From the NCBI GenBank assembly GCA_016946835.1, contig JACVTC010000256.1:16001-80000 (forward strand): DNA of 64,000 bases, written 5' to 3'. Made by a program: the position numbers and the translations under genes. Origin of the DNA: Neocallimastix lanati (nom. inval.). Its lineage: Eukaryota; Neocallimastigomycota; Neocallimastigomycetes; Neocallimastigales; Neocallimastigaceae. The notes under the pieces are model-generated. The model was not told the DNA's origin. It made no database searches and worked only from the letters and a program-made list of their open reading frames with translations. This document shows positions 15,312-61,182 of the stretch, in pieces (within the stretch, counting starts at the first letter, position 1; every line of letters starts with the position of its first letter).

Positions 15312-15354
<43 letters not shown>

Positions 15355-15688: not shown

Positions 15689-15726
<38 letters not shown>

Positions 15727-20785: not shown

Positions 20786-20823
<38 letters not shown>

Positions 20824-26004: not shown

Positions 26005-26043
<39 letters not shown>

Positions 26044-35189: not shown

Positions 35190-35222
<33 letters not shown>

Positions 35223-36299
35223 TTTTATTTCTATTATTATTATTTATTTATTTTAAAAAATAGTTATATAAAAAAAAATATAAATCAATAAAAAATATTT
35301 TAAATAAAAAATATATATTTATATATAAAATTTAAAAAGGTTTATATATATATTTAAAATATAAAAAATTAATTATATTTAAATTTTAAAAATCCTTATA
35401 AATATCTTTAAAGTTATATTTAAAACTTAAAAAGGTTATATATCTTTTAATTATAAAAAAAAATATTCCTTAAATATTCTTCAGAAATATAAATAAAAGT
35501 TTTAAAATAAATTTTCTTTAAATGTTTATTAATTATTTAAGGTTAATAAAACAATTGTGACAGAATTCAGATAATTCTTTTCGTTTGATAATTAACCTGT
35601 AATTTATTATAAATTGGTATTTTCATTACTTAATTTAATTAAATATTTAAACTATCATTTAATATTATCATTTCTTAGTTCTTCCAGTATCATCAAACAT
35701 TGTTTACATCATAAGAAAGTTTATTTACTTATTTTTTTTTTTTTTTGTTATTTATGATTTAATTGAGGATAGTGCATTTCGCAATGTGGCGTATTTTTGT
35801 ATTTTACTATTTTTTTAATAATATAATAAATAATAAGTATTCTTTTTTCTTTTTTATATATAATTTATTAATATTCCATTGTAAAAATAAGTTTTTATAA
35901 AAAATAATTTTTAATATTTCTTTTGAAATAGTAATTATTTTTATATTTATTTATGATTATATAGAATATCTTAAAAATGTATGGCTTTATTTTTTTAAAT
36001 ATTTAAGCCACATTACAAATCAAATTATTGTGAAATGTACTATATTCGAATTACTTGCATAAATCCCATTTTTTTTGTGATACTTTATTAAATATATGTT
36101 TAAGTTTATACTGAAAAGAATTGAACTTTTTGCCGTTTCATCTTAAATTTTATTTTCTTCAATTGATATAGATGTATTAAATTCTTTTAGGGATGATTAT
36201 TTAAGCATTCATATTTAGGGGTTTTTATTTTTTTTAACATTTAAAATAATGAAAGATTTGCATTTATATAGTTTTATCATATATTATATTTAGGAATTA

Positions 36300-36334
<35 letters not shown>

Positions 36335-36346
36335 AAATATATTTTA

Positions 36347-36385
<39 letters not shown>

Positions 36386-39300: not shown

Positions 39301-42300
39301 ATCAAAATAAAATATAATAAAGAATAAAATAAATCAAAAAAAATAAAATAAAAAAAAAATAAAATAAAACATAAAGAATAAAATAAAGATAAATAAAATA
39401 AAATAAAGAATAGAATAAAATAAAATAAAGAATAAAATATAAAGAAAATAAATAAAAAAAATAAAATAAAACATAAAGAATAAAAAAAAATAAAATAAAA
39501 CATAAAGAATAAAATAAAATAAAATAAAATAAAATAAAATAAAATAAAATAAAATAAAATAAAATAAAATAAAATAAAATAAAATAAAATAAAATAAAAT
39601 AAAATAAAATAAAAAATAAATCAAAATAAAATAAAATAAAGAATAAAATAAATCAAAATAAAATATAATAAAGAATAAAATAAATCAAAAAAAATATAAT
39701 AAAGAATAAAATAAATCAAAAAAAATAAAATAAAAAAAAAATAAAATAAAACATAAAGAATAAAAAAAAGATAAATAAAATAAAGAATAAAATATAAAGA
39801 AAATAAATAAAAAAAATAAAATAAAGATAAATAAAATAAAATAAATAAAATAAAATAAAGAATAAAATAAAATAAAATAAAGAATAAAATAAAGATAAAT
39901 AAAATAAAATAAAGAATAGAATAAAATAAAATAAAGAATAAATAAAATATAAAGAAATAAAATATATCATAAAAAATAAATAAAAAATAAAATAAAAAAA
40001 AATAAAATAAAACATAAAGAATAAAATAAAGATAAATAAAATAAAATAAAGAATAAAATAAAAATTAAAATAAAATAAAAAAGAAATAAAATAAAACATA
40101 AAAAATAAAATATAAAGAAATAAAATATATCATAAAAAATAAATAAAAAATAAAATAAAGAATAGAATAAAATAAACATAAAGAATAAAATAAAACATAA
40201 AGAATAAAATAAAGATAAATAAAATAAAATAAAGATAAATAAAATAAAATAAATAAAATAAAATAAAGAATAAAATAAAATAAAATAAAGAATAAAATAA
40301 AGATAAATAAAATAAAATAAAGAATAGAATAAAATAAAATAAAGAATAAATAAAATATAAAGAAATAAAATATATCATTAAAAAATAAATAAAAAATAAA
40401 ATAAAAAAAAATAAAATAAAACATAAAGAATAAAATAAAGATAAATAAAATAAAATAAAGAATAGAATAAAATAAAATAAAGAATAAAACAAAGATAAAT
40501 AAAATAAAATAAAGAATAGAATAAAATAAAATAAAGAATAAAACAAAGATAAATAAAATAAAATAAAGAATAGAATAAAATAAAATAAAGAATAAAACAA
40601 AGATAAATAAAATAAAATAAAGAATAGAATAAAATAAAATAAAGAATAAATAAAATAAATAAAGATAAATAAAATAAAATAAGAATAGAATAAAATAAAA
40701 TAAAGAATAAAATAAAATAAAATAAAGAATAAAATAAAATAAAATAAAGAATAAAATAAAATAAAATAAAGAATAAAATAAAATAAAATAAAGAATAAAA
40801 TAAAATAAAATAAAGAATAAAATAAAAAGAAATAAAATAAAATAAAAATAAAATAAAATAAAATAAAAATAAAATAAAATAAAATAAATAAAATAAAATA
40901 AAATAAAATAAAATAAAATAAAGAATAAAATAAAAAGAAATAAGAATAGAATAAAATAAAATAAAGAATAAAATAAAGATAAATAAAATAAAATAAAGAA
41001 TAGAATAAAATAAAATAAAGAATAAAATAAAATAAAATAAAGAATAAAATTAAATAAAATAAAATAAAATAAAATAAAATAAAATAAAGAATAAAATAAA
41101 ATAAAATAAAATAAAAAATAAAATAAAATAAAATAAAATAAAAAATAAAATAAAATAAAATAAAATAAAAATAAAATAAAATAAAATAAAATAAAGAATA
41201 AAATAAAGAATAAAATAAAATAAAAAATAAAATAAAGAATAAAATAAAATAAAAAATAAAATAAAATAAAATAAAATAAAATAAAAAATAAAATAAAATA
41301 AAATAAAATAAAATAAAGAATAAAATAAAAAAGAAATAAGAATAGAATAAAATAAAATAAAGAATAAAATAAAGATAAATAAAATAAAATAAAGAATAGA
41401 ATAAAATAAAATAAAGAATAAAATAAAATAAAATAAAGAATAAAATAAAATAAAATAAAGAATAAAATAAAAAAGAAATAAAATAAAATAAAGAATAAAA
41501 TAAAATAAAATAAAATAAAAAATAAAATAAAATAAAATAAAATAAAAAATAAAATAAAATAAAATAAAATAAAGAATAAAATAAAGAATAAAATAAAATA
41601 AAAAATAAAATAAAATAAAATAAAATAAAAAATAAAATAAAATAAAATAAAATAAAATAAAAAATAAAATAAAATAAAATAAAATAAAATAAAGAATAAA
41701 ATAAAAAAGAAATAAAATAAATAAAATAAAATAAAGAATAAAAAAAAATAAAATAAAAAATAAAACGAAAAATAAAAACATTTAATGACTATTTTTTTTT
41801 TAAGGAATATATTATTTTTAGCAATACTTTTTTTATTTAAAAGAATAATTTTTTTTAAATAATATTTTATTCTTTTAAATAATATTTTATTTGAAGTTTA
41901 TTTTAAAGTATCATTTTTTTTTTATTATTAAGAATATTTTTTTTTTTTAGGTATAGGTACTTTTTTTAAATACAAATATTTTTAAGACTTTTTTAATTTT
42001 TAAATATAAGAATATATATATATTTTATTATTTAAATATTTTTATTGAATATTTTATTTTATATTTATTTATTTATTTTTTTTTAAAATAAAAATAAATA
42101 AGAAAAAAAAAAAAAAAAAAAAAAAAAAACTTTAATACTAATTTAACATTATTTATTAAAACTGCTTATTTATTAATTCAATTATTAAAAATTTAGTTAG
42201 CCACATTTTTCGAAATACTATAATTCCATATTCATTAGTATATTAAAATATTTATTTATATTATTAATATATATTCATTAAAATATATAATAAATAATTT

Positions 42301-45300
42301 ATTTATATTATTAATATATATTCATTAAAATATATAATAAATAATTTATTTATATTATTAATATATATTCATTAAAATATATAATAAATAATTTATTTAT
42401 ATTATTAATATATATTCATTAAAATATATAATAAATAATTTATTTATATTATTAATATATATTCATTAAAATATATAATAAATAATTTATTTATGTTATT
42501 AATATATATTTATTAAAATATATAATAAATAATTTATTTATATTATTTATATATATTCATTAAAATAGATATTAAAATATTTATTTATATTATTAATATA
42601 TATTCATTAAAATATATATCGAAATATTTATTTAAGTAATTAATAAATATTCATTAATATATATATCAAAATATTTATTTAAGTAATTAGTAAATATTCA
42701 TTAATATATATATCAAAATATTTATTTAAGTAATTAATATATATTCATTAATATATATATTAAAATATTTATTTAAGTAATTATTTTATTTTTTTTATTC
42801 TTTATTTTATTTTATCTTTATTTTATTCTTTATTTTATTTTATTTTTTTTATTTTTTATTTTATTTTTTTTTTATATTCTTTATTTTATTTTATTTTTTA
42901 TTATATTATTTTTTATTTCTTTTTTATGTTTTATTTTATTTATTTTTTATTTTATTTATTTTTTATTTTATTTTATTTATTTTTTATTTTATATTTTTAT
43001 ATTACAATTTTTTTTATATTTTGATTTATTTAATTAGAAATTGCTTTAAAGAAAATATTTTATTGTATTAAAAAAAAAAAAAAAATAAATAATTTATTAG
43101 TTAAAAATTAAAATAATAAATAATTAATCTTATAAATATTAATAACTATTAATTGAATATATATAAATTATTTGATGGATGATATAATCCATTAAATTAA
43201 AAATTTAATATTATAAATAAATTTTTATTAAACATAAAAATATATCAAAACAATTTTTTCTTAAAATATTATTTAATTTTAATATGATTAACATAAATTA
43301 AAGATAAATTATCCTATGATAATTTCATTTTTTTATGTAAAAATCATTTATAGTTCATGTGGAAAACATAAATAAATGACAAAATAGCATATGATTTTAC
43401 ATAATTTTATGAAAATAAAGCATTATTTTTCATGTGGAAAACATAAATAAATGACAAATTATCATATGATTTTTACATAATTTTATGTAAAAAACATTAA
43501 TTTTTCATGTGAAAACATAAATTAATGACAAAATATCATATGATTTTTACATAATTTTATGTAAAAAAACATTAATTTTTCATGTGAAAAACATAAATTA
43601 ATGACAAAATATCATATGATTTTTACATAATTTTATGTAAAAAAACATTAATTTTTCATGTGAAAAACATAAATTAATGACAAAATATCATATGATTTTT
43701 ACATATTTTTATGTAAAAAAACATTAATTTTTCATGTGAAAAACATAAATTAAAGACAAACTATCATATGATTTTTACATAATTTTATGTAAAAAAACAT
43801 TTATTTTTCATGTGAAAAACATAAATTAATGATAAAAAAAATTAATGATGAAATATCAAATGATGATTTATATAATTTAATATAAGAAAACAAATAAAAT
43901 TATATTTTATTTTTTTATATTTAATTGCAATTATTTTAAATTATATAATTATTAATAGATTAGTATGTTGTTTGAATAATACTAATCAATATTAAAAATT
44001 TAAAAATTTTTTATATTTATATTTATTTTTTATTTTATATTTTATATTAGATTTTAATTTATTTTAAATTATTACTTAGATTTTAATTTACATTAGAATA
44101 AAGTTAATTAATTAAATTTATAATGATTAAATAATTAATAACATATAATTATGATATTATAAAATTTATATTTTTAATTTTATAATGATTAAATAATTTA
44201 TAACATATAATTATGATATTATAAAATTTATATTTTTAATTTTATAATGATTAAATAATTAATAACATATAATTATGATATTATAAAATTTATATTTTTA
44301 CTTTTATAATGATTAAATAATTAATAACATATAATTATAATATTAATAAAATTTTATTATTTAATAATGATTAAATAATTAATAAAATTTACTATGATAT
44401 TAGAGAAATTTTTATTTTTAATTAAATAATTATTAAATAATAAATAATATATCATTATTATTTATATTTTTAATTTGATAATGATTAAATAATAAATAAA
44501 ATATATATATAATATTATTAAAATTCACATTTTTAATTAAAATATAATTTTTAAATAAAATTTAAATTTATATTTTAATAATTAATTATATATTATATTG
44601 TGAAGTATATATAATTATATTGATAATAAATATTATTTGCAATATATTAAATTTTAAATAAAATATTACAATTTTTAAATAATAATTTACTTAATCTCAA
44701 TGATAGTATATAAATACAGCTATTATTTTATTAATAAAAATTTAAATTATATTATAAATGATATGAACAATTAAATTTTAAAATTATTAAAAATATTTAT
44801 TTTATTTGTTTAATTATTAGTAAAAAAGAATAATAAGAATATTACATTATACATATGGAAAAATTTATAATATTAAAATTTAATATAGAAGATAAAAAAA
44901 AAAATTTTTTTTATATATTTATATAAAATAAATAAAAATATTTAATTTTTTTTTTTTAATTTAAAATTTTGTTATTTTTTGTTTTAATGTATAAATTAAA
45001 AAAAAAAATGAAAGTTTATTTTAAAATATAATGTATATATATAAAAAATTTTTTTTTATATTCAGGTATATATAAAAATTGAAATTTTTTATTTTTAATT
45101 AGTTCAGAATTATTTTATTTTTACTATTAATGTATAAAAAAATAAACATAAAAATAATTATTTATATTTTAAATTAATAATAATAAATTTAAAAATTTAT
45201 AAAAAAATAATTTTATGTAAATAATGTATATTATTAAATTATGTTTTAAGTGGTAAAATGATATAAATTTATATTAATATATAAATATAATTATTTTTTT

Positions 45301-45789
45301 AGAATATAAAATTTAAATGATTTTTCAATTTAAAATTAAATACTTTATATAAAAATTTCAATTAATATATAATATTAATTTAAATAAATTTAAAATTTAA
45401 TAGTATAAGATTACTTCTATTTAAATTTAATATTAAATATTATTATATTATTATTAAAATATTTTATTTATTATAGTATATTTTTAGTAATTAGTATTAA
45501 CGTTTGAATATAATAATCTTGATAGATTACTATAAATATTAAAATATTTCGTTTTTAAAAAATATAATTATTCGTATAAAATAATATATATATTATTTTT
45601 ATTATTTATTTTATTTATTTTCTAAATAAAAAGAAAATAAATTGCAATAAAAAATATTTAAAAGAATTAATAATTGAAATATTTTTTTATAAAGGAAAGT
45701 ATTTATTAAAAAAATTAATAAAAAAAAAAATATTAATATAATTAAATTAATTTAAAAATTCAATTATCGAATATTTTTAGTTTTATAAT
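34145..45789. repeat. Large duplicated non-coding block, copy B
   Basis: Direct repeat of 1-11697. Sub-features in order: small inverted-repeat element (34180-34464), second inverted-repeat element (35771-36042), 47-48-bp array with fewer units (36400-37182), AAATA tract (37183-41779), inverted 47-48-bp array (42240-42782), inverted T-rich tract (42783-43005), 76-bp array with six units (43335-43860) and a roughly 62-bp array (44105-44500). Open frames across 37144-41781 are pentamer-repeat artefacts. Unlike copy A, the sequence does not stop after TTTTATAAT but continues into 45790-46570. Confidence 0.9.
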
Positions 45790-46570
45790 TAATAAAGAAA
45801 TATATTTAATATATTTTAAATTGATTTATTAAAATTAGTATTTTCATTTTAATTTATATTTTATCAATAATAATTTCAATTATTTTAAATTTCAAATTAT
45901 AAATTTAGAAAATTGTATATATATATTAAATTATTATTATAATGGAAAGGTATAAAATTATTTATATTATTACAGTTTATTAGATTTTAAAAATATATAA
46001 TTTTTGATTAATATAATAAGTTTTTATTTATATAAAATACTTTCAAGTATAAAATTAAGAAAATTTATTTTCAATTATGAACAAAATATTAATATTTAAT
46101 TTAATAAATAAAAATAAGATTTATTTAAAATTTATTGTTAAATTTAAGGCTAATAATTTTTATTTTATAATTAAAATGATTAATATTTTGTTATTAAAAT
46201 AAAAACAAATAACTTTTAAGATTATTTAATATTTAAAATTGAAATAAAATTATTTAAATATAAATTAATTTAAAAAATAAAGAAAATTTAGTTTAAATGA
46301 AATTTATAAATTTGTTAAAAATTTTCCAATATAAGAGTAAAACGGATTCATTGAAAAAATAAAATTAGTCTAACTAATTTAAAAAATTAAATTATTTTAT
46401 AAGAAAGAAATAAAAATAAAAAATAAAGATAAATTTAAATTATTATTTATTTAAAAAGTATGAATAAAAAAGAAAATAATATAAATTATAAAGGAATTTT
46501 ATTTGTTTAATTAAAGAGATAAAAAGAACAAAAAAAAAGAAATAAAAAATCTTTTTAAAATCACGTGATA
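45790..46570. other. AT-rich sequence present only after block B
   Basis: About 780 bp with no ORF or ordered repeat, lying between the point where copy A ends and the telomere-like junction. It ends with CACGTGATA. It looks like block sequence lost from copy A, though an insertion in B is the alternative. Confidence 0.5.
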
Positions 46571-46592
46571 AGGGGTTAGGGGTTAGGGTTAG
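46571..46592 (+). repeat. Telomere-like junction repeat, longest example
   Basis: About three units mixing TTAGGGG and TTAGGG (AGGGGTTAGGGGTTAGGG then TTAGG), with the G-rich strand reading rightward, abut a retroelement 3' end. The mixed register and variable unit number across junctions argue for added repeats rather than a fixed element sequence. Confidence 0.8.
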
Positions 46593-46623
46593 GTTTTAAA
46601 CGTTATAATTTTATTTAATAAAA
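46593..46623 (-). mobile_element. Ultra-short 5'-truncated retroelement end
   Basis: About 31 bp (TTTTAAACGTTATAATTTTA and on) duplicate the 3' terminus of the gag-only element and are themselves capped by a further TAGGGTTAGG. This is what an almost immediately aborted 3'-end-first insertion would leave. A local tandem duplication of the terminus is the alternative. Confidence 0.6.
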
Positions 46624-49281
46624 TAGGGTTAGGTTTTAAACGTTATAATTTTATTTAATAAAATTAATCAAAATAGTTAATACATTATTAATGTATATAT
46701 AATTACATGGAATCATGACTACATGACTTTGAGTAATTTAATACAAATTTTTAATAAGAAGAAAAAATTCAGTAAAATAGTAAAGTAAATATTTAAAGAG
46801 TTTAAGATTTTAAGGAAGAAAAATTATTCTTTTTTAATAAAGTAAATGATTAATTAAAGTAATTCTAATTAAGAATTTTTTTTTAATAGTTATCTAAAAG
46901 AATATAAAGTTTTTATAATCTAGTAGAATATTTTAAAATAAAATTTATAAAGAAATTAAATTTTTAGTTTGTTCGTAAAGTAAGTATATTTAATTAAGAC
47001 TGAAATCGTATGAAATATATTTATTCATTGATATATTTCATAGATTCAATAATATCCTCCGAACTATAATCCATAGGTTTTAATGGATTAATAGTTGTAT
47101 TCAGGATGTTAGGGGAATTGGATATTATAGTATCACTATACATATCCATCCCTGCTTCCTGATAGTGCTCAATTGGCACTGTAGGAGTTAACGTTGAGGA
47201 GATAATTGAATCATTATCATCCTCTGTGCATTGGTCGTCATCCTCAAAGAGTTCAGACGTACCTTTGAATTCTGGGGATTCAAGAGGGCCACTTGGACTA
47301 GCAGCCTTAAAAACAGCAAAGCCCTTTGATGGGCTAATTACCCTTTCCTTTAGCGCTAGGGCAAAGGCAGAAATAGCTTCTTTACTAGAGCGACGGGCAG
47401 CATTGGCTACTTTTGGGTTCGAGCCAGACGAGTTAGCTGGGGTACCTTTGGGGGTAGCTGGAGCATTATCGGGGGCACAGCCCGAGGGAGGAGCAGCGAA
47501 GTTGTTACCTGAGGTAGAGACTTCTGCATCAGGAAGTACAGTAGGTGTGGGCGTAGGAATATTAAATTTGGTAAATTTAATATTTTGGATAACATTAGAA
47601 AAGAAGTCCTTAACATAATCAGGACTTCTTTCTCTATTAATAGTTTCAGATATTCTTCGGTAGCAAGCTTTTTCTATCCTAAGAATATCTTCACCATTTG
47701 CTGTTGAGGCATTTTCAACAGCTACGGGGTTAAAGTTTTCGAGAACTTTAAATGAGTTTTCAAAAACTTTAAGAATATCAGTAATCATTGGTTTGAATTT
47801 TTTGAGAACTGTAAGTTCACAAATGTCCTTACCAATGAACGAGACATTTCTGATGTAGAAATGTCTAATACCAAGATTACTAAGGCATTTTTTAACAATC
47901 CAGATGGGTTGTCTTTGTATGCCTTGAATATATAAAAGGTCAAGGTCTTCCTTTCGGATGATCTTGGGTTGTTTCAGAATGAGATTCAGGACACTTTCCT
48001 GAATTATGGGGAGACCATCTTCCTGGCTCTTGATTCGTCGAAGTTGGAGAGGAAGATGGTCGGCATTCTTTTCAAGGAATCTGTAATTTCTTTACATTTT
48101 CCCTTTTTTTCTTCTATCATTTTTTTAATCCTCTCCTTTTTCTCTAATATTTCAAGAGAAAGGCGAGAGGGTGCGACTTCAGAATTATTAGGTAGCACTG
48201 GGTTAAGTGCTACTGGTTGATTTTGGATCTTAGAAATTTTGGATAAAAGTTTACTTTTATCCTTTTTCCAAGATTCTTGGAACAAATTAAACGCATTAGT
48301 AAGATTGGATATTTCAATCTTACTATTATTATACAGATTTTTTAAATGAGCGTTCTCAGTTCTAAGACGATTAAATTCATCTAAATTGAACTGATTAAGC
48401 TCTTCGGTTGGCGAGTCCTGGTGCCTTGGGAGATATCTCTCAATGGTAGGACTGCGTTCTTCTTCCAGAGGATTATTTTTTCTTTTACCGAGAGTTTCGG
48501 TAACTGGCTTCTTGAATAATCCTTCTTGAGATATTCTTTCTTCCGATTTCCTTAAAGTAGGAAAAACCGGCGTCAAGACGGGTTCTTCAGTAATACTATG
48601 ATTACTGATATTTTTTTCTTCAGGTTCTTCCATCTCAGCATCTTGGGTCGATACTGCAATGGATGGGGTAGTAGCGGTAGCAGCAGTAATAGGACTAGTA
48701 GCAGGAATAAGTCCAGCAAATAGAAGGGTTTGATTATCTATAATCTCTTCTTTGTCTTCTAATTCTGGTCGGTAGTAGTCGAATTCGCAACAGAAATGAT
48801 TTCTTAACTTAAGCACGTCTAAGGGTCTCGTATGCCCTGTTAACGGCTTTTTTATATCTGTTTTTAATTCATCTTTTGGATTAGGACTCTTAAAGGGAAG
48901 AGTGATGAATTTCTTCCCATTCTTGAAAGTGATTTCCGTTTTGTTTTCATTAAGAGAGACGATCCCATGATCATAAAGATCAATGAGGTACGCCTTAAGA
49001 CTGGTAAAGGGGCAACCATTATTACACTTCTTCTTCTTTTTGTTGATGCAGATGAGGCGGGTTTCACTCGTCTTAGTGAATGTTCCCCCACATCTTCTGC
49101 ATCGGATCGGAGTAGGACGTCCGTCCGTGCTTTGGGTTTTACCACTAAGAATAAAGGAATAGTGGTAAACTCCGAAACTTCTAAAAACTTCTTCTCCTTT
49201 AGATGGCATTTTTTTTTTAGAAAATAATTATAAGAGATTAAAATTTATAAGAATATTTAATTATTAAGAATATTTTTATTT
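46624..49281 (-). mobile_element. Gag-only LINE-type retroelement, copy B
   Basis: The same unit as 11698-14361, starting at its own AGGGTTAGG tail (46624-46632). Its 5' edge at 49281 is met directly by the next TTAGGGTTAGG junction. The ORF is frameshifted (see 47021-49209). High similarity to copy A implies recent duplication or recent activity of one source. Confidence 0.7.
47021..49209 (-). pseudogene. LINE ORF1, frameshifted copy
   Basis: Colinear with the intact ORF1 at 12101-14290. One G is missing in a GGG run near 48075-48077, so the frame from ATG 49207-49209 ends early at 48004 after 401 codons, about 22 of them out of frame. The remaining C-terminal part, including SFIGKDICEL and the Ala/Pro tail, is open in the original frame down to 47021. 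Other differences are few (for example CAFTN versus CPFTS near residue 66, and APSSG versus APPSG in the tail). A sequencing or assembly error in the G-run cannot be excluded. Confidence 0.8.
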
Positions 49282-49291
49282 TAGGGTTAGG
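49281..49291 (+). repeat. Telomere-like junction repeat
   Basis: TTAGGGTTAGG lies between the 5' edge of the gag-only element and the 3' end of the following truncated element. It has the same orientation as the other junctions. Confidence 0.75.
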
Positions 49292-50210
49292 TTTTAAATT
49301 CTTTTATTTATTTAAGATTTACAAAGTATTACATGTATTTGATAAATATAATAATTACAAGAATAAAATATAATAATATAAAAATTATTTAAAGTATTTA
49401 CTAAATATAACTATTATAAGAATTAATAAGTAATTTAAAATATTAAATATTATTACTAAGTTAAAATTAATAAAGATTTAACTAACTAATAAAATTATTT
49501 AATATTAAAATATTTAAAGTTTGATAAAAAATATAAATTTAAAGTTATTAAAATTTTGATCAAAAATAAATTTAAAGTTATTAATGTTTTGATCAAAAGT
49601 AAATTAAAGTATTTAAAGTTTTGATTAAAAAGTAAAACGGATATACTAAATATGTCCATTATCTAAAAAAGGAAAATATTCTAATTAACTATATCTAAGA
49701 GAAAATTTATGAAAATTTAACAAACTTAAAATTCATATACTGAAATCCCATGAGGAATTTCAATATCTTGACTATCTCTAAAAGGAAATATTAAAAAAAT
49801 AACTATTATTAAGTATTAATAACTATAAGAAATATAACTTATTTAAGAAATTAGAATATATAATTATTAAAAGTAAATAATTATATAAGATAATAATCTA
49901 AGTATTATATAAGATATTAATCTAAGTATATAACTATAAAAAGTAATAATAAAAATATATAATTATATAATTATTAAAATAAATAATTATATAAATGAAT
50001 AAAATATATAATTATAAATGAAATATAATTATATAATAAAATAAAAAATATAATTATTAAAACAAATAATTATATTAGGTAATAATAAAAATATATAATT
50101 ATAAATAAATAATTATATAAGTGAATAAAATATAATAAAATATATAATTATTATAAGTAAATAATTATATAAGTGAATAAAATATAATAAATTATATAAT
50201 TATTATAAGT
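49292..50210 (-). mobile_element. 5'-truncated copy of a LINE 3' end (919 bp)
   Basis: It aligns base for base with 50228 to about 51130 (offset 936) with a handful of substitutions and small indels, then stops at the next telomere-like junction. It contains only the 3' non-coding part of the large element to its right. It reads as an insertion that was truncated at its 5' end and then capped by another element. Confidence 0.8.
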
Positions 50211-50227
50211 AGGGGTTAGGGGTTAGG
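50211..50227 (+). repeat. Telomere-like junction repeat
   Basis: AGGGGTTAGGGGTTAGG precedes the 3' end of the full-length element (TTTTAAATTC). It matches the junction at 11698 in repeat type and number. Confidence 0.78.
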
Positions 50228-52366
50228 TTTTAAATTCTTTTATTTATTTAAGATTTACAAAGTATTACATGTATTTGATAAATATAATAATTACAAGAAT
50301 AAAATATAATAATATAAAAATTATTTAAAGTATTTACTAAATATAACTATTATAAGAATTAATAAGTAATTTGAAATATTAAATATTATTACTAAGTTAA
50401 AATTAATAAAGATTTAACTAACTAATAAAATTATTTAATATTAAAATATTTAAAGTTTGATAAAAAATATAAATTTAAAGTTATTAAAATTTTGATCAAA
50501 AATAAATTTAAAGTTATTAAAGTTTTGATCAAAAGTAAATTAAAGTATTTAAAATTTTGATTAAAAAGTAAAACGGATATACTAAATATGTCCATTATCT
50601 AAAAAAGGAAAATATTCTAATTAACTATATCTAAGAGAAAATTTATGAAAATTTAACTAACTTAAAATTCGTATACTGAAATCCCATGAGGAATTTCAAT
50701 ATCTTGACTATCTCTAAAAGGAAATATTAAAATAACTATTATTAAGTATTAATATCTATAAGTAAATATATCTAAAATAGATAATTATTATAAGTAAATA
50801 ATTATATATGATAATAATCTAAGTATTATATAAGATATTAATCTAAGTATATAACTATAAAAAGTAATAATAAAAATATATAATTATATAATTATTAAAA
50901 TAAATAATTATATAAATGAATAAAATATATAATTATAAATGAAATATAATTATATAATAAAATAAAAAATAAAAAATATAATTATTAAAATAAATAATTA
51001 TATTAGATAATAATAAAAATATATAATTATAAGAAAATAATTATATAAGTGAATAAAATATAATAAAATATATAATTATTATAAGCAAATAATTATATAA
51101 GTGAATAAAATATATAATTATTATAAGCAAATAATTATATTAGTGAAAAAAAAAATATATAATTATAAAAGATATATAAGTATATAATATAATAATAAAA
51201 ATATATAATTATTAAAAGAAATAATTATATAAATAAATAATAAAATATATAATTATAAAAAGTATATAATTATATAAGTAAGTAAAAAGTATATAACTAT
51301 TAAAAGAAATAATTATATAAGATAATGAAAAAATATATAATTATTTAAAAATAAATAATTATATAAGTAAATAAAAGTATATAATTATAAAAGATATATA
51401 ATTATATAAGTAAATAAAAGTATATAATTATAAAAGATATATAATTATATAAGTAAATAAAAAGTATATAATTATTTTAAGCAAATAATTATATAAGATA
51501 ATGATAAAGAAAGTATATAATTATTTAAAATAAATAATTATATAAGTAAATAATAAAAATATATAATTATAAAAGGTATATAATTATATAAGATAATAAA
51601 AAGTATATAATTATTAAAAGAAATAATTATATAAGAAAAAAGAGAAGTATATATAATTATTTAAAGAAAATAATTATATAAGAAATTAAAAAATATATAA
51701 TTATAAAAGATATATAATTATATAATAAAATAAAATAAAAGTATATAATTATTAAAAGAAATAATTATATAAGATAATAAAAAATGTATAATTACTTAAA
51801 GTAAATAATTATACAAGAAAAGAAAAGAAGTATATATAATTATTAAAAGAAATAATTATATAAGATAATAATAAAAAGTATATAATTATAAAAATATAAA
51901 ATTATATAAAATGATAAAAGTTTATATAAAATTATATAAAATGATAAAAATTTATATAAAATTATATAAAATGATAAAAGTTTATAATTATTATCTAAAG
52001 ATAATAACTATAATAAAATAAGAGTTAATAATTAAAAAATAAAGGGTAAATAAAGTAAAGTAATTATTAACCAAAGTAAATAAAATAAATAAAAAAAGGT
52101 AAGGTTGAAAGAATAATAAAGGTTATAAAAATATAATTATTATAATGAAAAAAAATAAAAGGTATTATATAAATATTTAAATTATTATGAAGACATAATA
52201 AAATAAGATATATATATATAGAGATAATTTATAAAAGATAATTTATAAAAGATAAAAATAAAAATAAAATAAAAAAAGAATAAAAGAAAATAAAAAATAA
52301 AATAATAATTATTCTTATGTTATTTATATATAATTAAATAAAAAGATTAAAAAAAAATAAATCTTT

Positions 52367-52442
52367 TAATAATTTATATATAAAGGGAACACAAGAAAAA
52401 TTTATAATAATTTATATATAAAGGGAACACAAGAAAAATTTT
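52367..52442. repeat. 38-bp tandem duplication
   Basis: Two adjacent copies of AATTTATATATAAAGGGAAC plus ACAAGAAAAATTT, identical apart from the last bases. Confidence 0.85.
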
Positions 52443-53098
52443 TAATATAAATTTTTTAAATATAAATATAAAAGAAGAATTATAATAAAAATTATAGAAT
52501 TATATTAAAAGTAAAATAAAAGGATAACTATTGTAAAAGTTAAAAGGGTAAATAAAGAAAGGAAAAATTATAAAACTATATAATTAATAAAAATCTAATA
52601 TGTAAATAAATAAAAAAAATATATTTTATACTAAATAAAAACTATATATAAAATAATTTAATTCTTTAATAATAAATAATAAAATAATAATAAAAATTAT
52701 TATAAAAATTATTTATTAAAAAATTATTAAATTATTTTATATAAGAGAAAAAAAAATAAAATATTAAAAATTAAATGAATTAAAAAGTGCACTTTTAAAA
52801 TAATTATTTAACATTATTTGTTTTTATTCTTTTAAAATAGTTTTAATAATTATTTTAAAAGTGTAAATAAAAAAAAGTCAATAAAAAATTTTTTAATAAC
52901 AATAAATAAAAATATAAAAAAAAATATAATTATTTAGAGTTATCAAAAATAATGTAGTACAAAAAATAAAAATAAATTTTTTTGTACCGCAAAATATATA
53001 TAATAATTAATAAATAGATAAATATGAATTACCGTTATGATATAAAAAGATTTATAATAAATATAATTATTTAATAAAAAAAAAATAATTAAATAATA

Positions 53099-53171
53099 AA
53101 CCATAATGTATTTTGGATTATACATTAGGAGAAAAAACCATAATGTATTTTGGATTATACATTAGGAGAAA
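53099..53171. repeat. Duplicated 37-bp hairpin motif
   Basis: Two adjacent copies of a unit containing TAATGTAT, an 8-nt loop and ATACATTA (53104-53127 in the first copy), so each forms a perfect 8-bp stem. It lies in the presumed 3' region of the full LINE and could be an RNA structure or a small replication-slippage product. Confidence 0.7.
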
Positions 53172-54401
53172 TAAAATTATTTTTTTTTTTTAATAATAAT
53201 TATTATTATTATTATTTTTTTTTTTTTTTTTTTTGTAATTTTTTTTGTAGTAGATTTTTTTTGTATTATTTTTTTGTATTTAAATATATTGTTATTATAT
53301 TATAATATATGTGATGAAAAAAAATTTTTTATATTTTTTAATACATTTTTATTTTTATTGGATAAAAAATTGAAATTTTATAATTGTATTAAATTTTTTT
53401 ATTTTTTATATGGCTTTAAACATTAATTATATTTGATTATATTGAATTTTTTTTATTTTTTGTATGGCTTCAAATTAAAAATATTGATTGTATTGAAATT
53501 TTTTTTTTGGTCCTATTTATTGGTTCATTTTTTTTTTTTTTTACAATTTTGATTGATTTAAATTTTTTTTTTTTTTGCAATTTTGATTGATTTTATTTTT
53601 TTTTTTTTTTTTTTTTTTGCATTTTTGATTGGATTTAAAATTTTTTTTTTTTTTTATATTGTTTGAATGAATAATGAATGTATTTATATTGAAAAAATAA
53701 TTATTTTTTGATACATTGTAATGAAATTTTTTATAATTATTGGATAATAAGTTGAAAATATTGTATATGTATTGTTTTTTTTTTTTTTTTTTTTTTTTTT
53801 GTATTTGAATTGTAAAATATTTTAATTATAATATAATTTAATAATAAAATTAAATAAATAAAAAATATAGTTAGTAATTATTGATAATAGTAATAAAAAA
53901 TAATAATAAAAAATTTAAAAGGCCTTTTAAAAAAAAAAAAAAAAAGTAAAGACTTTAAATAAAAAAAAAAAAATAATTAATAAATTTATTATATATTTTT
54001 TAAATAAAATATTTAAATAAATAAATATATATTTAAATATATAAAAAATTTATTTTTAATTTTTCATAAAATAATTAAAAATATAATAATTTATTTTATA
54101 AAAAAAATTAAAGAAATAAAAATAAAAAATAAAAAATAAAGGTCACTTTAAAATAAAAGAATTATTTTAAAAGGCCTCTTAAATTTAAAATTTTAATAAA
54201 TAAATAATAAAAAAATTTTTAATTTACTATTAATTATAATTAAAATTATAAAAAATTTAATTTAAAAAAAAAAAAAATTAAAAAAAAAAAATAATTAAAC
54301 TTTGGTGTAACAAAAAAAAATTTTTTTGAAATAATTTAAAAATTTAATTAAATTTATATTTACCTTTTAATTATATAATTCTAAAAGTTGTTTTGTTTTG
54401 T

Positions 54402-54443
54402 TTATGTATTGAAGTTATAATTTTTATTAATGGTATTATTGGC

Positions 54444-54475
<32 letters not shown>

Positions 54476-55709
54476 CAGCAGTAGTAGATGATGATAGTTC
54501 ATTCCAAAATTTATAAAGGAAGTCGGTGATAATTCTAAATTTATCATAATTTTTATTATTTAATATACTGTCTAGTATATTATAGTTTGGTGGTGGATGA
54601 TCACCATACTTTCGAAGTTCACTTTTATATGCATAGATGTCATCGTTGCATATAAAATGCCAAAAGGGAACATGCATAAATAATTTGCATTTCTGAATAT
54701 GAGCTCTATTCATTTCCCTATGACATATTGGACAGATCTTTTTATAGAGAAAAGTATTTAATCTCCATCTTATTGCTCTATATCTTGTTATAGGATCATT
54801 GATATAGATGCATTGATCAGAAGAATTAGTTTCTTTAATATAATTTTTATCGGTCTTCTTTTTCACTCTTGCAAATGGAAGAATACAACTTGTTAACGCT
54901 GAACTTCCAAAGTTACTTTTATAAATAAGATCTTTTATTCTTGAATCCAAACCAATAAGATCTATATCTGGATCATTCGGGTCTTCGTCGTCTGGTATCA
55001 CTGGATCTTTTAATCCAAAGTATTTTAAATGGAACAAATGATCCCAGTCCATAACTTTATAAAAAAAGGAATTTCTTGGGATCCTACTTTTATAGTTATT
55101 GATATAAAAGGCCACATTTAAAGGATTATCTTCATCTATTTCTTTAATGTGCCTTTTAAATTTTAATGATAATGTATAGAGTCTTTCTAAAGTTGGAGGT
55201 AATCCTAAAATAGAAAAGCCTATACGAAAACGTTTAGTATTTAAGATCCATTTAACTCCTAGTCTCATTACTTTATTATAAAGATGGTTCTCTTCAAAGG
55301 GTTCTTTGGAATTTAATTCTCTATTTTCAAATTCTTCAATACTTTTCATCCAGTAAAAGGAAAGACAAGCAGAATGTTCCATCATTGGTCTAATAAATGA
55401 TCTAAATATGAATAACTTAATTGAAGGCGACCATTTATTGATATAATAATTCAGAGACTTTAACAATTTTAATGATCGTTCTGCTGAATTATTTAAATGT
55501 TCTTTCCAATTAATTCCAGAACATCTATGAATAAAACCCAAATACTTGTATTCTTCTTTTTTTGGAAGTCTATTTTCTTCTGAACCTAAATAAAAAGGAA
55601 GATCATCCACGTTATTATTATTATTATAATTATTTATGTTGTTATTATCATCATCATTATCATCATCATTATCATCATCATTATCATCATCATTATCATT
55701 ATCATTATC

Positions 55710-55744
<35 letters not shown>

Positions 55745-57719
55745 CATTATCATCATCATTATCATTATCATTATCATTATTGTTATTAAAATAAGGATCA
55801 CTAAGGAAAGCTGACTTTTCAATGTTAAACTCCATTCCATTTTCTTCAGCCCATTTAAAACAGATATCTATCATTTTTTGCATATTATCTTTATTTTCAT
55901 TATTTAATTTAATATCATCAGCATAGAAAAGACAATGAGGTAATGGATCATTTGGATACCTTTCTGTCAATTCTGATGCTAAATCATCAATGAAAATATT
56001 AAAAAGTAAAGGTGATAAAATAGCACCTTGTAGTAAGCCTCTTTGTATTTCTATTTCATCCGTTATTTCCTGATTTACAATAATTCTTGTAGTACATCCA
56101 GAAAATAACGAAGCAATCAATGAAATGATACCTTTGGGAAGATTTCTTTTTTCCAATTTCTTCATCAACATTTTAATTGGAACGGTATCATAGGCTTTCT
56201 TTAAATCCAAAAAAACATGATGTTGTTTTGGATTATAACTTTGAGCTGTTTCATTTGAGGCTATAGCATGTGTTAGTGTGGAATACCCTGAACGAAATCC
56301 TGCTTGATTTCCACACAATTTAAGTTCTTTTTTCAATTTCGTATTCATATAATCTAATAATAGACCTTCAAATACTTTACGAAATGTATTTGTTATTGAT
56401 ATTGGTCTAAAATCTTTGATATACGAGGATTTCTTCTTTTTTGGAATAGGAAAGGTAACGGATTCATTCCATCCTTTAGGTGTCATTCCAAACTTTATAC
56501 ACATTTGATAAAGATAGAGCAAAAGTTTTGGAAAGTCTGTTCCTAAAAGAGTTTTTAACATTACCGAATGAATCCCGTCTATTCCACACGCTTTGTTGGA
56601 TGATAATTTTGTAATTTTAAAGGTAATTTTATCCTCGTTTAAATACTTATAAAATTCCTCGTCGTAGCTTCCCAAATAATTTCTTCTTAGATCCTTTGGA
56701 TTAAACTCTTCAGCTTTATACTTATATATTTTTTTATAATAGTTGAAAACATCTTCAAGAGGCGTCAAATTTGGCGATTCTGATTCAATAAATTGAGGGT
56801 TCTCATTTGAGTTTTTTAAATGTTCTTTAAAAAGTCTCAGTACCGTATTTACTTCAATTGGATTTTTTTCTGAAATTGAATTAGAATATTGTTCTAATTC
56901 ATCGTTGGTACTGTCGACTTTTGACTTTTCATTATTCGATATAGATTTTCCAATTTCAAAAAAATACTTATCTATATCGGGAGATTGGTACACATTTTTA
57001 TTTGTTGATAAAGAACCCAATAAATCAGAACTCGTATCTTGTATAAATCCCCTAATTAATTCATCGAAGGAATTTATAACATTTTGTTTTACCTCCACTG
57101 AAGATTGTTGAAATTTACTGATCAAAGTTTTTGAATTTTGCAAGGTTATTTTTGAAAATATATCAATTCTATTTGAAAAAGAATTTCTAATTAAAGGAAG
57201 TTTTAAATTTTTAATAACATATCTTTTCTTAATTGTAGTAGTAGTATCATTATTAATATCATTAAAATTATTATTATGATTATGATTATCATTATCATTA
57301 TTAAAAGAATTATTAAAACTATTAAATAAACTAAAACTAAAGTTATTATTAATATTATTTTCATCATTAAAAGAATTATTAAAATTATTAAATAAACTAA
57401 AACTGGAGTTATTATTAATATTATTTTCATCACTAAAAGAATTATTAAAAGTATTAAATAAACTAAAACTATTATTACTAATATTATTATTATTATTATT
57501 AAAATTATTATTACTATAACTATTGTTAAATAAACTATAAGAATTATTAAATAAACTAAAAGAATTATTAAATAAACTATAATCGTTATTATCATCACTA
57601 TTACTATTATTATTAATATCATTAGGGTTAAAATTATCAACATTAATATTATTATAATTATTTATAATATTAATATCATTACTAACATTAATATTATTAT
57701 AACTATTATTAACATTAAC

Positions 57720-57776
<57 letters not shown>

Positions 57777-57886
57777 ATTATAATTATAATTATTATTAAT
57801 ATTAATAGTATTACTAACATTAATATTATTATAACTATAACTATGATTAATATTAATATTATTGCTAATATTAATATTATTATTAA

Positions 57887-57943
<57 letters not shown>

Positions 57944-58727
57944 TACTACTACTACCTAAAGGGATCATTACTTCTAAGGAAGGATGATCCGTTGGAAAAG
58001 ATGAGTTATTAAGATATAAAAATGTATTTAAACTATTTTTAGAAAAGCAATGATCCCATTTATTTATTATATTTTTTGGATTATAGGGAACATTGTAATG
58101 TAAATAATACTTTTTTAAAAATTCTTTCAATATAAAGAATTTTTCTTTTTCCTTTTTATTATTTAATGAAGATATTGAAATAGAAATATTAAAATCTCCT
58201 AATATCATATCAGGAGAATAAAAAGTAGAAATACTTTTTTTAAATTGGATTGATGATAAAGATGGAGGAAAGTAAACCGCCATTATATTTTTATTAAATA
58301 TTTTTAATAGGATATAATATTCGGTTACTTGTAATATGGAAACTTTTTCTTTTAATAATGGATTTATAAAACACATAATTCCATTATTATAGCGAGTACC
58401 TCTTTTTTCTTTAATTGGAGTACTTGCTAATAGGTGTGGATTTTTAAATAATTCTATATAATTTATGAACCATGTTTCACTAATAAATATGATATCATAA
58501 ATATATAGAAGGCAATTAAAAATATACTTTTGTTTATATTTTGAAAATCCTCTAGCATTTACATATAAAATATTTAAGCGAGGACTAGCATTTTTGCATT
58601 GATTTACAAAAGTATTGAAATGGATATTAGTAGTAAGGGGGGAGGAATGATGATTAACTTCAACCGTATTATTTTCAACATCGTAAAGGTTAGGTATAAT
58701 AGACGGTATATAGTTAATATCATTCAA
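54402..58727 (-). CDS. LINE ORF2: endonuclease and reverse transcriptase
   Basis: 1441 codons counted from a TTG at 58725-58727. The frame is open further upstream to 58841 without any ATG, and the first in-frame ATG lies inside the endonuclease domain, so translation must start by another route. The APE-type endonuclease is at about 50-255 (E84 in ISETWF, GDFN 177-180, TDH 246-248). An Asn-rich insert occupies 259-503. The reverse transcriptase is at about 700-975 (IKDFRPISI, D842 in FLDLKKAYD, RGLLQGAILSPLLF, YADD 936-939). An Asp/Asn insert occupies 981-1041, the zinc knuckle CX2CX7HX3C lies at 1332-1347, and a poly-Thr tail is encoded by an (AGT)n microsatellite on the plus strand. All visible catalytic residues are intact. 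It copies element RNA at a nicked target or free DNA end. Confidence 0.94.
57219..57953 (-). repeat. Asn-rich coding insertion between endonuclease and RT
   Basis: ORF2 residues 259-503 are mostly Asn with Ser/Phe/Ile repeats (NNSFSLFN modules) encoded by (AAT)n-type repeats. The paralogue at 15728-19330 has no equivalent at this position, so the insert is a lineage-specific expansion tolerated between domains. Confidence 0.85.
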
Positions 58728-58794
58728 ATTTTTATAAATAACCCTATAATCAACATTAATAGAATTAATGTGATTTTGGTTATTACTATTGTAA

Positions 58795-58841
58795 TTATTC
58801 AGATTTATATTGTCTTGATTGAATTGGTTCCGAATAATTAC
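58795..58841 (-). promoter_or_regulatory. ORF1/ORF2 overlap, candidate +1 recoding or reinitiation site
   Basis: The ORF1 stop TAA is at 58795-58797. The ORF2 frame is shifted +1 relative to ORF1 and is open from just after a TAA at 58842-58844, so the frames overlap by 47 nt. There is no ATG in the overlap or between the ORF1 stop and the endonuclease domain. ORF2 expression therefore needs a +1 frameshift, stop-coupled reinitiation at a non-ATG codon, or an equivalent mechanism. Confidence 0.6.
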
Positions 58842-58886
58842 TTAAATCAGAATTTACCCCCCCTTGAATAATATTATTCATGATTA

Positions 58887-58922
<36 letters not shown>

Positions 58923-58973
58923 CCATATTATTTATATTATTATTATTATTATTATTAATGTCCATATTATTTA

Positions 58974-59018
<45 letters not shown>

Positions 59019-59030
59019 CCATATTATTTA

Positions 59031-59070
<40 letters not shown>

Positions 59071-61182
59071 ATCCATATTATTTATAATATTATTATTAAT
59101 TAGATTAATGTTTTCTTTATCATCAGTTTCCATATTAACTTTATTTAAAGTAATATCTTCATTTGTATCAGTTTCCATAGGGTTTCTTTTATTACTATCC
59201 TCCATTATTTCATTATTTATTTGCTCTTCATGTATGATTTCATTACCAGTAGCTTCCATATCATCTTCATTTTCAGATGAAGCGGTATCGGAATCATATG
59301 TACTGTATCTATTTTCATCTGTTAGTACTTCATCTTCATCTTCCCCTGTATAGCTTTCATAAAGACTAAAACTATTGTGATCATAGGCACGGTAAGGACC
59401 ATTAACTTCATTATTATTGTTGTTGCTGCTGCTACTGCTGCTACTACTTGCTTCTGCTAAGTTGTTCCTATTTCTGTTGTAATTAGTATTATTCATATTA
59501 TTAGGGGTAAAAGGAACATGTATTAATTGAAATTTAGTATTCAGAAGCACTTCCTTATAATATTCTTTAACATATTCAGGACTTTCTCTCCTATTAATAA
59601 TATCAGTTATTCTTTTATAATAGGCAAGTTCAGTCCTCTTAATGTCTTCACTTTTTGCCTCTCCTTCTTTAGTGCATACACTTGGATCGAAATCATTTAA
59701 AATCTCAATTTCGCAGGATTGAAGAACTTTAATTAATTGATCCTTAAAATTTTTGTGAACTAATAATTCACAAATATTTTTGCCAACAAAAGAAATATTT
59801 TTGAGTTGGCTTGAAGGAATTCCAAGATTTTTTAAAAAAAACCGTACAAATCTTGTTTTCTGAGCCTCAATTCTGGCATAAACTTTAACCAGATTTTTTG
59901 GATTTATTTTTCTTCTTGGGCTCGTCTTCAATCCTAAAATGCACTTCATGATGAAGGATTTATCTTTATTCAAGTTTTTTAAGTTCTCAGGTAATTCTTC
60001 CTGAGATAAAATTTCATTAACGGAATGGTAGACAGGATTATCTTGCTTTTTTGCTACCATTTCATTAATATTTTGAATTCGATCAATTAACTCTTGATCA
60101 TTAATTGATTTTCCGTTCTCCATCATCAGAATTTCATCAGAAGCAACAGCAGCGGCATCGGCATCGGCATCGGCATCGGCAGTGGCAATGGCAGCAGAAG
60201 ACAATGGGTTAGGGTAAGCAGGATTCAAAAAAGTATTCCTTTCACCGGACGAAGAGGCATTATTACTTTTGAATTTTAGGATTCTATTTTCATCCATTAA
60301 TTTGTTGATTAATAAGTCCTTGCTCATAATTTGTTGCTTTAAATAATTGTTTTCGATAGTCATTCGATAGAAATCATTGTGGTAGCTATAGGAATTCGAA
60401 AAATTATTGAAATTAGCCTCCGCTTCTTCTCTCTGGTTTGAAATTCTTGGTCTTTTGGAAGTGGGGGTGGTAACGGAATTTAATGGAGTATCAGAATCCA
60501 TTTCTAAAGTATCATTATTTTCAAGAAAATCTTGAGAAATTATACTTTCAAATAAATTTTCAGTTTCTGAACTAGGAGTAGAGCTTTCATAAACAACTGG
60601 GTTTTTCATTCTTATTTCATTTGACTTATAATAGTCATAAGGGGAATAAAAAAGTTCTCTAATACTAGAAATAGTATATTTTGAACCAGCTGGGGTAATA
60701 TTTACTGGTTTTAATAGAAAACCATTTATTAAATCATCGTCTTTGGGACTTTTAAATTCAATCTCCAGATCTTCCAATTCTGGATTGTCTTTTCTTTTAA
60801 AAATAATTGTCCCACTTTTTATTTGTTTACCCAGCATGGTAAAGTCTCCTGTTCTCTTAAAGTCTATACAACCGTGGTCGTATAGGTCTTCAAGAAAAGC
60901 TTTCAAAAGGGAGCAAGAAATGGAATTGTTACAACTCTCGCAACGGACATAGTAGTATTTAGTTTTTTTTTTATTAGTACATGTTCTTGTTAGAGATTTT
61001 TTGCATTTAGCACAGAAAATAGGGCAAAGCTTTCTTTGATTTTCATTTGCTTGTTTGCCATTCATAACGAAAAACAGATGAATTTCGGAAGCGAAAGACA
61101 AAGGATGATCTTCCGGAAGTTTTCTTAAAATTTTTCCTTCCTCAAAATGTATTGTTCTATTTGAAGAAGAAGCCATTCTCAT
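58795..61182 (-). CDS. LINE ORF1 (Gag-like), upstream partner of the full-length ORF2
   Basis: 795 residues from ATG 61180-61182 (a second ATG is at codon 3). It shares the architecture of the ORF1 at 12101: a zinc-ribbon-like CX2C (57-60) and CX2C (81-84), LKAFLEDLYDHG at 93-104, EFKSP, a coiled coil at about 270-305, and a conserved domain at about 405-558 with SFVGKNICEL (464-473) and RRESPEYVK (531-539). The C-terminus (about 690-770) is four or five imperfect repeats of NNMDINNNNN encoded by an (AAT)n minisatellite. An Ala/Asp run lies at about 335-345. Its position immediately upstream of ORF2 identifies it as the element's nucleic-acid-binding ORF1 protein; direct evidence of binding is lacking. 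Confidence 0.88.
58885..59095. repeat. Coding minisatellite (ATT)n with TGTCCATATTATTTAT units
   Basis: Four periodic blocks of ATT triplets separated by AATGTCCATATTATTTAT keep the ORF1 frame open while lengthening the Asn-rich tail. Block lengths differ, which indicates active slippage. Confidence 0.85.

Follow-up and report, generated by a model that had tools for sequence, protein, structure and literature searches.

Flies, moths and a small number of other fungi are known to build chromosome ends with telomeric retrotransposons. In Drosophila, HeT-A, TART and TAHRE (Jockey clade) form head-to-tail arrays with inward 3' ends, in which gag-only units stand alongside enzyme-coding ones. Telomeric repeats and telomerase are absent there, according to the passage cited (PMC7265360). 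The Bombyx elements SART1 and TRAS1 (R1 clade) are LINEs that encode an APE-type endonuclease and occupy the telomere repeat in one phase. In the portion cited here, SART1 is described as joined via poly(A) to AGG and as requiring three repeats (PMC7265360). The fungal MoTeR, FoTeR and Cnl1 (CRE group) are LINEs at TTAGGG-type telomeres, with 5'-truncated copies, short tracts between units and, in the excerpts cited, a C-terminal restriction-like endonuclease (PMC12857005, PMC7367193, PMC12810828).

The array described here, from the anaerobic gut fungus Neocallimastix lanati (nom. inval.; assembly GCA_016946835.1), resembles those of Drosophila in its head-to-tail layout, inward 3' ends and gag-only units, whereas its units nearly all stand on TTAGGG(G), which 30 of the 35 contig ends read carry. 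Its likeness to SART1 and TRAS1 lies in endonuclease and target; unlike SART1 it shows the join GGTTAGG/TTTTAAA (the slash marks the junction) without poly(A), with usually one or two repeats. It shares the target, the 5' truncations and the short tracts of the CRE group but differs in having an N-terminal endonuclease, assigned by its APE-like model fold, and a separate gag, as well as one family with ORF2 upstream of gag. No earlier report of telomeric retrotransposons in Neocallimastigomycota was found in the open-licence literature. We consider it likely that these are telomere-specific non-LTR LINEs with an APE-type endonuclease, reverse-transcribed onto the telomere G strand in a TTAGGG(G) host.

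Layout and coding capacity of the array

The window, the whole stretch of 64,000 nucleotides analysed, lies on contig C175, whose 80 kb form a single array throughout from base 557 onward. All units are on the minus strand with their 3' ends leftward, on the repeat (Table 1), as the original prediction had stated. The junctions between TTAGGG-like repeat and element that it listed are all present: the tracts ending at 46593 and 46633 pass into TTTTAAACG, and those ending at 49291 and 50227 into TTTTAAATTC. The 31-bp element end (here measured at about 30–31 bp) and the 919-bp 5'-truncated end were likewise recovered. The predicted gag-only element is also present, with its gag broken into two open frames (48004–49227 and 47021–48091), and a near-identical copy on C402 is 98.6% identical to family B across 2.65 kb. 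The last element does contain ORF1 and ORF2, but calling it full went too far, as its 5' end is outside the window; the contig stops at base 80,000, which is window position 64000. The supposedly chromosomal left flank proved to be an array unit, its 5' part mostly collinear with C175:557–27697, and the same kind of junction is found again on its far side at 11698–11715. Unit 1, in which no gag or reverse transcriptase (RT) frame was found, has its 3' end left of the window at C175:557, with the junction GGTTAGGGTTAGG/TTTTAAACG.

Table 1. Features of the array, in window coordinates
Feature	Position	Strand	Detail
Unit 1 (B'), 5' part	1..11697	-	collinear with window 19471-45789 at 78-91%
Telomere tract AGGGGGTTAGGGGTTAGG	11698..11715	+	sequence
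Unit 2 (B-long), 34.9 kb	11716..46570	-	TTTTAAA 3' end to 5' terminus TTTAAAATCACGTGAT
gag of B-long, 731 codons	12101..14296	-	open frame; downstream of RT frame
ORF2 of B-long, 1201 codons	15728..19333	-	APE-type endonuclease (model) and RT
Telomere tract	46571..46593	+	sequence
Unit 3, 3'-end stub	46594..46623	-	identical to B 3' end
Telomere tract TAGGGTTAGG	46624..46633	+	sequence
Unit 4, gag-only	46634..49280	-	open frames
Telomere tract TTAGGGTTAGG	49281..49291	+	sequence
Unit 5, A family, 5' side cut	49292..50210	-	5' end = A position 914
Telomere tract AGGGGTTAGGGGTTAGG	50211..50227	+	sequence
Unit 6 (A-long), to contig end	50228..64000	-	
ORF2 of A-long, 1479 codons	54402..58841	-	open frame; RVT_1 E 2.7e-34
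ORF1 of A-long, 806 codons	58795..61215	-	open frame; upstream of ORF2; homologous to gag

The window contains eleven GGTTAGG motifs, where shuffled sequence would give 0.94, two of them (58688 and 60207) within the ORFs of A-long and none in the interior of unit 2.

Both ORF2s contain a LINE-type RT domain (RVT_1; E = 8e-31 in B-long) and are 53% identical across 490 residues; LINE-1 ORF2p is among their best sequence matches in the PDB, and the relatives found for the RT carry no clade names. The N-terminal model matches the endonucleases of LINE-1 (1e-8) and R1Bm (6.5e-7), and the predicted fold is that of an APE-type, LINE-1/R1-like enzyme. The gag of B-long is homologous to ORF1 of A-long (E = 4e-33). 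In B-long the endonuclease/RT frame lies upstream of gag, opposite to the usual order. Between families B and C, gag has a dN of 0.135 and a dS of 0.45; its low-confidence fold model gave no PDB match below 1e-3.

Junctions and chromosome ends across the genome

The original prediction turned on the species' telomere repeat, the flank of element 3' ends and their distance from contig ends. The repeat is TTAGGG/TTAGGGG, and (TTAGGG)5 is found at contig tips, pointing outward, with the exception of one internal match on C269. The host probably also has telomerase; weak matches to the TERT RNA-binding domain occur at C106 (28.5 and 27.4 bits; cut-off 25).

Copies of three element 3' ends, collected via the intact 3' end, number 183 genome-wide. 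The junction GGTTAGG/TTTTAAA has a single phase and is exact in 164 of them, whereas 18 are without the 7-bp tract; no poly(A) tail was found at the 3' junction of the copies seen. The pattern GGTTAGGTTTTAAA has 183 matches and its reversed counterpart 2. Because copies were collected by their intact 3' end, variation there is under-seen, and a count starting from the tracts served as a check: across 17 stretches, 39 of 39 internal tracts run on into TTTTAAA, and the 2 remaining internal GGTTAGG matches sit in ORFs. Chance G-rich flanks are ruled out by this count, the 183 against 2 matches and the motif excess in the window.

The 183 copies reduce to 123 unique junctions, each defined by its family, the 15 bases that precede the tract, and the tract itself. 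Fourteen of these stand outside the 109-row counts, namely 12 with a core below 7 bp and two keys whose tracts exceed the stretch read; the latter merge four copies that come from three or more distinct ends (C57/C537, C191, C269), and hence 123, like a related count of 111, falls a little short. In irregular long tracts (C545:4771, C296:30960) the unit rule gives too low a count, and in the tip comparison it sets the C505 tract start too early. Among unique junctions, the tract is mostly one or two repeats long, and a recognised element, from a partial element library, directly precedes it in 64 of 123. The 5' cut points vary while the 3' end is constant.

Contigs of 300 kb or more hold 51 copies. 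Of these, 33 are found no further than 20 kb from an end, where 1.7 would be expected, and every one of the 33 has its 3' end inward; nine lie more than 100 kb away, four of them pointing inward. An element stands within 10 kb of the tip at 16 of 26 telomere-capped ends. Ordinary LINEs that have no telomere target and merely amass near ends, or an artefact of assembly, would suit the interior copies that are without a tract, but are highly implausible given the one-phase junction in 164 copies against 2 reversed matches, the uniform orientation near ends, and the occurrence of the same end on different contigs both filled and element-free.

These matched ends are five junctions at which the filled version agrees base for base with the telomere start on the element-free one: C497/C666 (15 bp shared), C347/C57 (17 bp, including a TTTAGG variant), C126 versus C269 and C57 (9 bp), C177/C562 (9 bp) and C191/C756 (120 bp, irregular). 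The tip of C377 likewise has the same flank as the tract at 46571–46593, followed by telomere up to the contig end. An origin of the repeats in the element RNA rather than in a pre-existing telomere is disfavoured by such tips, most strongly by C756/C191 with its irregular tract and C57/C347 with its variant. The genome-wide search confirms the original observation as real, makes a strong case of it and supports its interpretation as a telomere-targeting LINE array; the conditions that the prediction had named as refuting it were checked and did not hold.

In the mechanism we propose, the telomere would supply a G-strand 3' end (...GGTTAGG) as primer, either at an endonuclease nick or at the chromosome's own terminus. 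The element RNA, which would have ...TTTAAAA as its 3' end and no poly(A), would be reverse-transcribed from it, which would fix the 3' end to the repeat and turn the 5' end toward the tip. Telomere repeats, presumably added by telomerase, would then cap the new end, and repeated cycles would yield head-to-tail arrays in which short tracts separate the units. The enzymes would come from autonomous copies, while gag-only and non-coding units with the same 3' ends would be carried along. Weighing against this reading are the 18 copies that are without the 7-bp tract, the nine that lie more than 100 kb from an end, and the presence of a recognised element ahead of the tract in only 64 of 123 unique junctions.

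The long units and their origin

The chief alternative to G-strand priming, above all for the 25–35-kb units, is that the junctions spread through recombination from one telomere tract to another. An eroded end with few TTAGGG repeats would invade an array tract and copy everything beyond it by break-induced replication, so that the fixed junction is inherited, not newly made, and the elements are mostly passengers. Tracts one or two repeats in length are consistent with eroded ends, long near-identical stretches recur on several contigs, and MoTeR arrays, in the passages cited, offer a precedent for this kind of copying and for interstitial tracts that are short and stable (PMC7367193). As a general account it nevertheless appears improbable, since many distinct 5' cuts accompany one 3' end, gag dN/dS is low, and some units are joined via TAGG alone, without a tract (C98:144950; C98:224841, as TTTTAGG; C505:17852).

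The long unit consists mostly of AT-rich tandem repeats and is duplicated at 98–100% on several contigs. Its 5' terminus TTTAAAATCACGTGAT adjoins telomere repeats in six of seven genome occurrences, the seventh not having been read. The A-long region 57900–62300 recurs at 96–100% in C507, C191, C497, C177, C297 and C1. A 5' part common to A and B units was considered: window 61216–64000 matches nothing within the first 66 kb of C175, yet a unit on C177 begins as A and ends like B.

There is about an even chance that only the short units retrotranspose, the 25–35-kb units being subtelomere blocks that include a LINE 3' end but multiply through recombination. The tandem repeats and the near-identical duplicates fit this, as do the lengths, which are far above those of any LINE known to us. 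Against it, long and short units alike begin at the GGTTAGG/TTTTAAA junction, the long ones terminate either at a common 5' terminus or at varying cuts, and the single long unit that was fully read contains no tract. The further reading that these are giant telomeric LINEs, one of about 25 kb in which no ORF was found and one of 35 kb that is coding, is possible but doubtful. They would extend from the TTTTAAA 3' end to a shared ATCACGTGAT terminus, include one family with gag downstream of RT and, together with gag-only helpers, share the upkeep of ends with telomerase, joining ends that carry one to three repeats. If true retrotransposons, the 25–35-kb units would be far larger than the LINEs known to us and reversed in ORF order.

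With this array, an early-diverging fungal phylum joins the short list of organisms in which telomere repeats and retrotransposons together make up the chromosome ends. An APE-type endonuclease, as the fold model indicates, would be new among fungal telomere elements, those described in the excerpts cited belonging to the CRE group (PMC12857005, PMC7367193, PMC12810828). As ends are now known both with and without an element, end-addition versus internal insertion becomes testable.

Architecture and coding capacity of the array

The window corresponds to C175:16001-80000 (C-numbers denote contigs of the 199-Mb, 762-contig assembly). Contig C175 ends at 80,000 and from base 557 on is a head-to-tail array. 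Every element/tract junction listed in the original prediction, in which a telomere tract ending in GGTTAGG joins the TTTTAAA of an element 3' end, was found in the window, as was an additional one of like kind. The left flank, previously taken as chromosomal, is instead a member of the array, because it is collinear with the B' unit across most of the 5' parts (e.g. 14.5 kb at 90.4%), contains no internal GGTTAGG in a motif search of the window, and has a terminus that meets telomere repeats. In order, the array comprises B' (27.1 kb) and B-long (34.9 kb), followed by a stub, a gag-only unit, an A stub and A-long, where A, B and C are LINE families distinguished by their 3' ends. The B and B' 3' ends are identical over their first 37 bases, nearly so over ~71, and divergent beyond. 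The 5' part of B units holds a large tandem array whose period is close to 195 bp, and one of ~195-bp period is also present on C175 before the window.

The sequence supports B-long being one unit, because copies starting from the same 3' end cross gag into the spacer/ORF2 and stop at a telomere tract (see table). RVT_1 is present in ORF2 of both B-long and A-long. A predicted model of the endonuclease (mean pLDDT 68.9) matches the endonucleases of LINE-1 (1e-8), human APE1 (2.3e-7) and R1Bm (6.5e-7), and the GDFN motif and a DH pair are invariant among five aligned sequences. An ORF2 relative was found in Orpinomyces; relatives outside gut fungi share ~24-31% identity over part of the protein. 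ORF1 of A-long is homologous to the B-long gag, the order being ORF1-ORF2 in A-long and ORF2 upstream of gag in B-long, and gag of families B and C differs by a dS of 0.45 and a dN of 0.135. The two frames of A-long share ~45 nt and no in-frame ATG stands early in ORF2, features that hint at frameshifting or reinitiation. Inverted repeats seen by eye near the 3' ends (B, TACATTATTAATGTA; C, TACATTAATTAATGTA; A, TACATGTA) may form an RNA hairpin.

Coordinates of array features and of compared sites
Feature	Location	Detail
B' unit	C175:557-27697	
Additional junction	window 11698-11715	
B-long (unit 2)	window 11716-46570	minus strand
A-long (unit 6)	window 50228-64000	minus strand
~195-bp tandem array	window 26600-31600	
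A-long ORF1/ORF2 overlap	window 58795-58841	
Inverted repeats	window 11716-11800, 50228-50300	
A copies with common flank	C58:405365, C120:154323, C126:184284, C264:36589	
DNA beside two A copies	C190:635800-636050 (L170), C22:38400-38650 (L171)	
5' terminus TTTAAAATCACGTGAT	C175/C402/C589	22-bp core, then element
5' terminus TTTAAAATCACGTGAT	C177	39 bp of tract, then element
5' terminus TTTAAAATCACGTGAT	C269	long tract (read in part), then element
5' terminus TTTAAAATCACGTGAT	C377	telomere continuing to contig tip
B-type copy stop	C177	window 16359
B-type copy stop	C197, C481	window 15587
B-type copy stop	C297, C157	window ~15372
Filled C497	tip C666	15 bp common
Filled C347	tip C57	17 bp common, including TTTAGG variant; C269 tip, 13 common
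Filled C126	tips C269 and C57	9 bp common
Filled C177:76967	tip C562	9 bp common
Filled C191	tip C756	120 bp common, after 3,891 identical bases
Frame into telomere	C580:6001-14937 (L024)	4436-8554
Frame into element junction	C505:10001-19397 (L020)	5548-7860
Frame into element junction	C666:980001-989049 (L011)	743-1663

Junctions and their positions across the genome

A genome search allowing up to 3 mismatches recovered 183 element 3' ends (A, 68; B, 88; C, 27), and the flanks of all were read. As predicted, most abut telomeric repeats, with GGTTAGG preceding TTTTAAA in 164 copies, TTAGG in 170 and TAGG in 173. A telomere-like tract of at least 7 bp is present at 165; the other 18 include four copies from one duplicated site and three from another, as well as several whose telomere-like flanks have decayed. 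Four A copies share the non-telomeric flank GTACATTAAGGAAG immediately before TTTTAAA and therefore represent a single insertion site duplicated onto four contigs. The DNA beside two A copies resembles, by eye, LTR retrotransposon integrase/reverse transcriptase.

The pattern GGTTAGGTTTTAAA has 183 genome matches, a total equal to that of the copies by coincidence, versus 2 for the reversed pattern. Families A, B and C account for 85 of the first 100 places listed for this 14-mer; six of the other 15 (L150, L153, L154, L159, L160 and L161) have A- or C-like starts by eye, and the remainder may be chance matches. Counting from the tract instead, TTTTAAA comes next at all 39 internal tracts in 17 stretches, and two other internal tract matches, of 7-8 bp, lie inside A-long ORFs.

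The predicted clustering at ends was borne out on contigs 300 kb or longer: 33 of their 51 copies lie <20 kb from an end (1.7 expected under a uniform spread), each with its 3' end inward. At distances up to 100 kb the count is 42 (8.7 expected), again all inward, and four of the nine deeper copies point inward. Copies are spread over 59 contigs, 35 of which hold more than one, with both strands represented on C1 and C296. An outward-ending copy lies within 10 kb of 16 of the 26 (TTAGGG)5 contig ends and farther in for one, and families A, B and C are absent from the contigs of the other nine; tips in this single assembly are putative chromosome ends and include duplicated or allelic ones. The element-free tips C486/C606, and likewise C459/C689, share a flank and telomere start and are probably allelic or duplicated ends.

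The 5' terminus of B-long, TTTAAAATCACGTGAT, is a 16-mer occurring seven times in the genome. Telomere repeats come next in the six occurrences covered, which represent four contexts (five by pattern match and the sixth, on C177, by sequence reading); the seventh lies on C135. Window 46177-46593 aligns to C377:28200-28697, a telomere-capped contig end, at 98.3% over 418 columns with 0 mismatches and 7 gaps. The unit at C177:24833-60070 has an A 3' end and A ORF sequence, yet its 5' terminus is as in B-long (85% over 138 columns); an internal junction may be hidden.

A recognised element stands directly before the tract at 64 of 123 unique junctions. The 5' ends of gag-only copies lie at 2644-2649 from the 3' end (five junctions) and those of A copies at 2943 (four junctions), which suggests discrete RNA 5' ends, though copying could also generate such clusters. 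Spacings between successive listed junctions include 35.2 kb on C177 (A), 34.9 and 27.2 kb on C175, 33.4 kb (C126), 26.9 kb (C305), 26.1 kb (C200), 26.0 kb (C239) and 25.0 kb (C269), with 25.0 kb also separating C377:3553 from the C377 telomere; C175 alone was read throughout, and elsewhere another family's junction could be hidden.

Filled and element-free telomeres

Five filled junctions, in which an element is present, reproduce the telomere start of a tip with the same flank (see table), and the window junction shares 10 of 22 bp with the C377 tip before a one-G difference. Two routes could account for these matches: attachment of elements to telomeres already there or, where the match is short, re-growth of the tip from a broken tract. 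At C191/C756 the identity extends right up to the junction, and this favours insertion. Beyond the C191 array the telomere departs from the C756 pattern, a result that fits end-addition but could also stem from erosion. Long open frames run into telomere at one site and into element junctions at two, as if chromosomes had broken within genes and been healed there. Telomere healing from 1-4-nt seeds is described in an excerpt of PMC7367193. Two weak adjoining TERT domain matches hint that telomerase may be present.

The core, the tract just before the element, measures at least 7 bp at 109 of the 123 unique junctions, being 8-9 bp in 41 and 14-15 bp in 36. Telomere is found on 30 of 35 tips read, at lengths of 80-524 bp, several of them lower bounds. 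Cores of up to 26 bp account for 105 of 111 counted, versus 9% predicted for uniform insertion into tip-length tracts. The target may be short telomeres, or longer tracts may not last, as the same excerpt of PMC7367193 reports for MoTeR arrays. The base before the first tract G is A in 92 of 109 and TA precedes it in 71, against window backgrounds of 47% and 16%. Three Gs are commoner in the last repeat at junctions (GGG:GGGG, 66:33) than in terminal repeats (639:687; p 0.0004), a comparison that homopolymer errors may blur.

An excerpt of PMC12857005 places FoTeR, MoTeR1 and Cnl1 in a group with CRE and SLACS, and describes a restriction-like endonuclease in FoTeR and MoTeR1; portions of two other papers place Cnl1 at Cryptococcus chromosome ends (PMC12810828) and give three repeats plus a poly(A) tail as SART1 requirements (PMC7265360). 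The gut-fungus elements may be likened in their working to FoTeR/MoTeR1/Cnl1 and SART1, and only for the general kind, telomere-targeted non-LTR retrotransposons, is membership backed by every feature tested.
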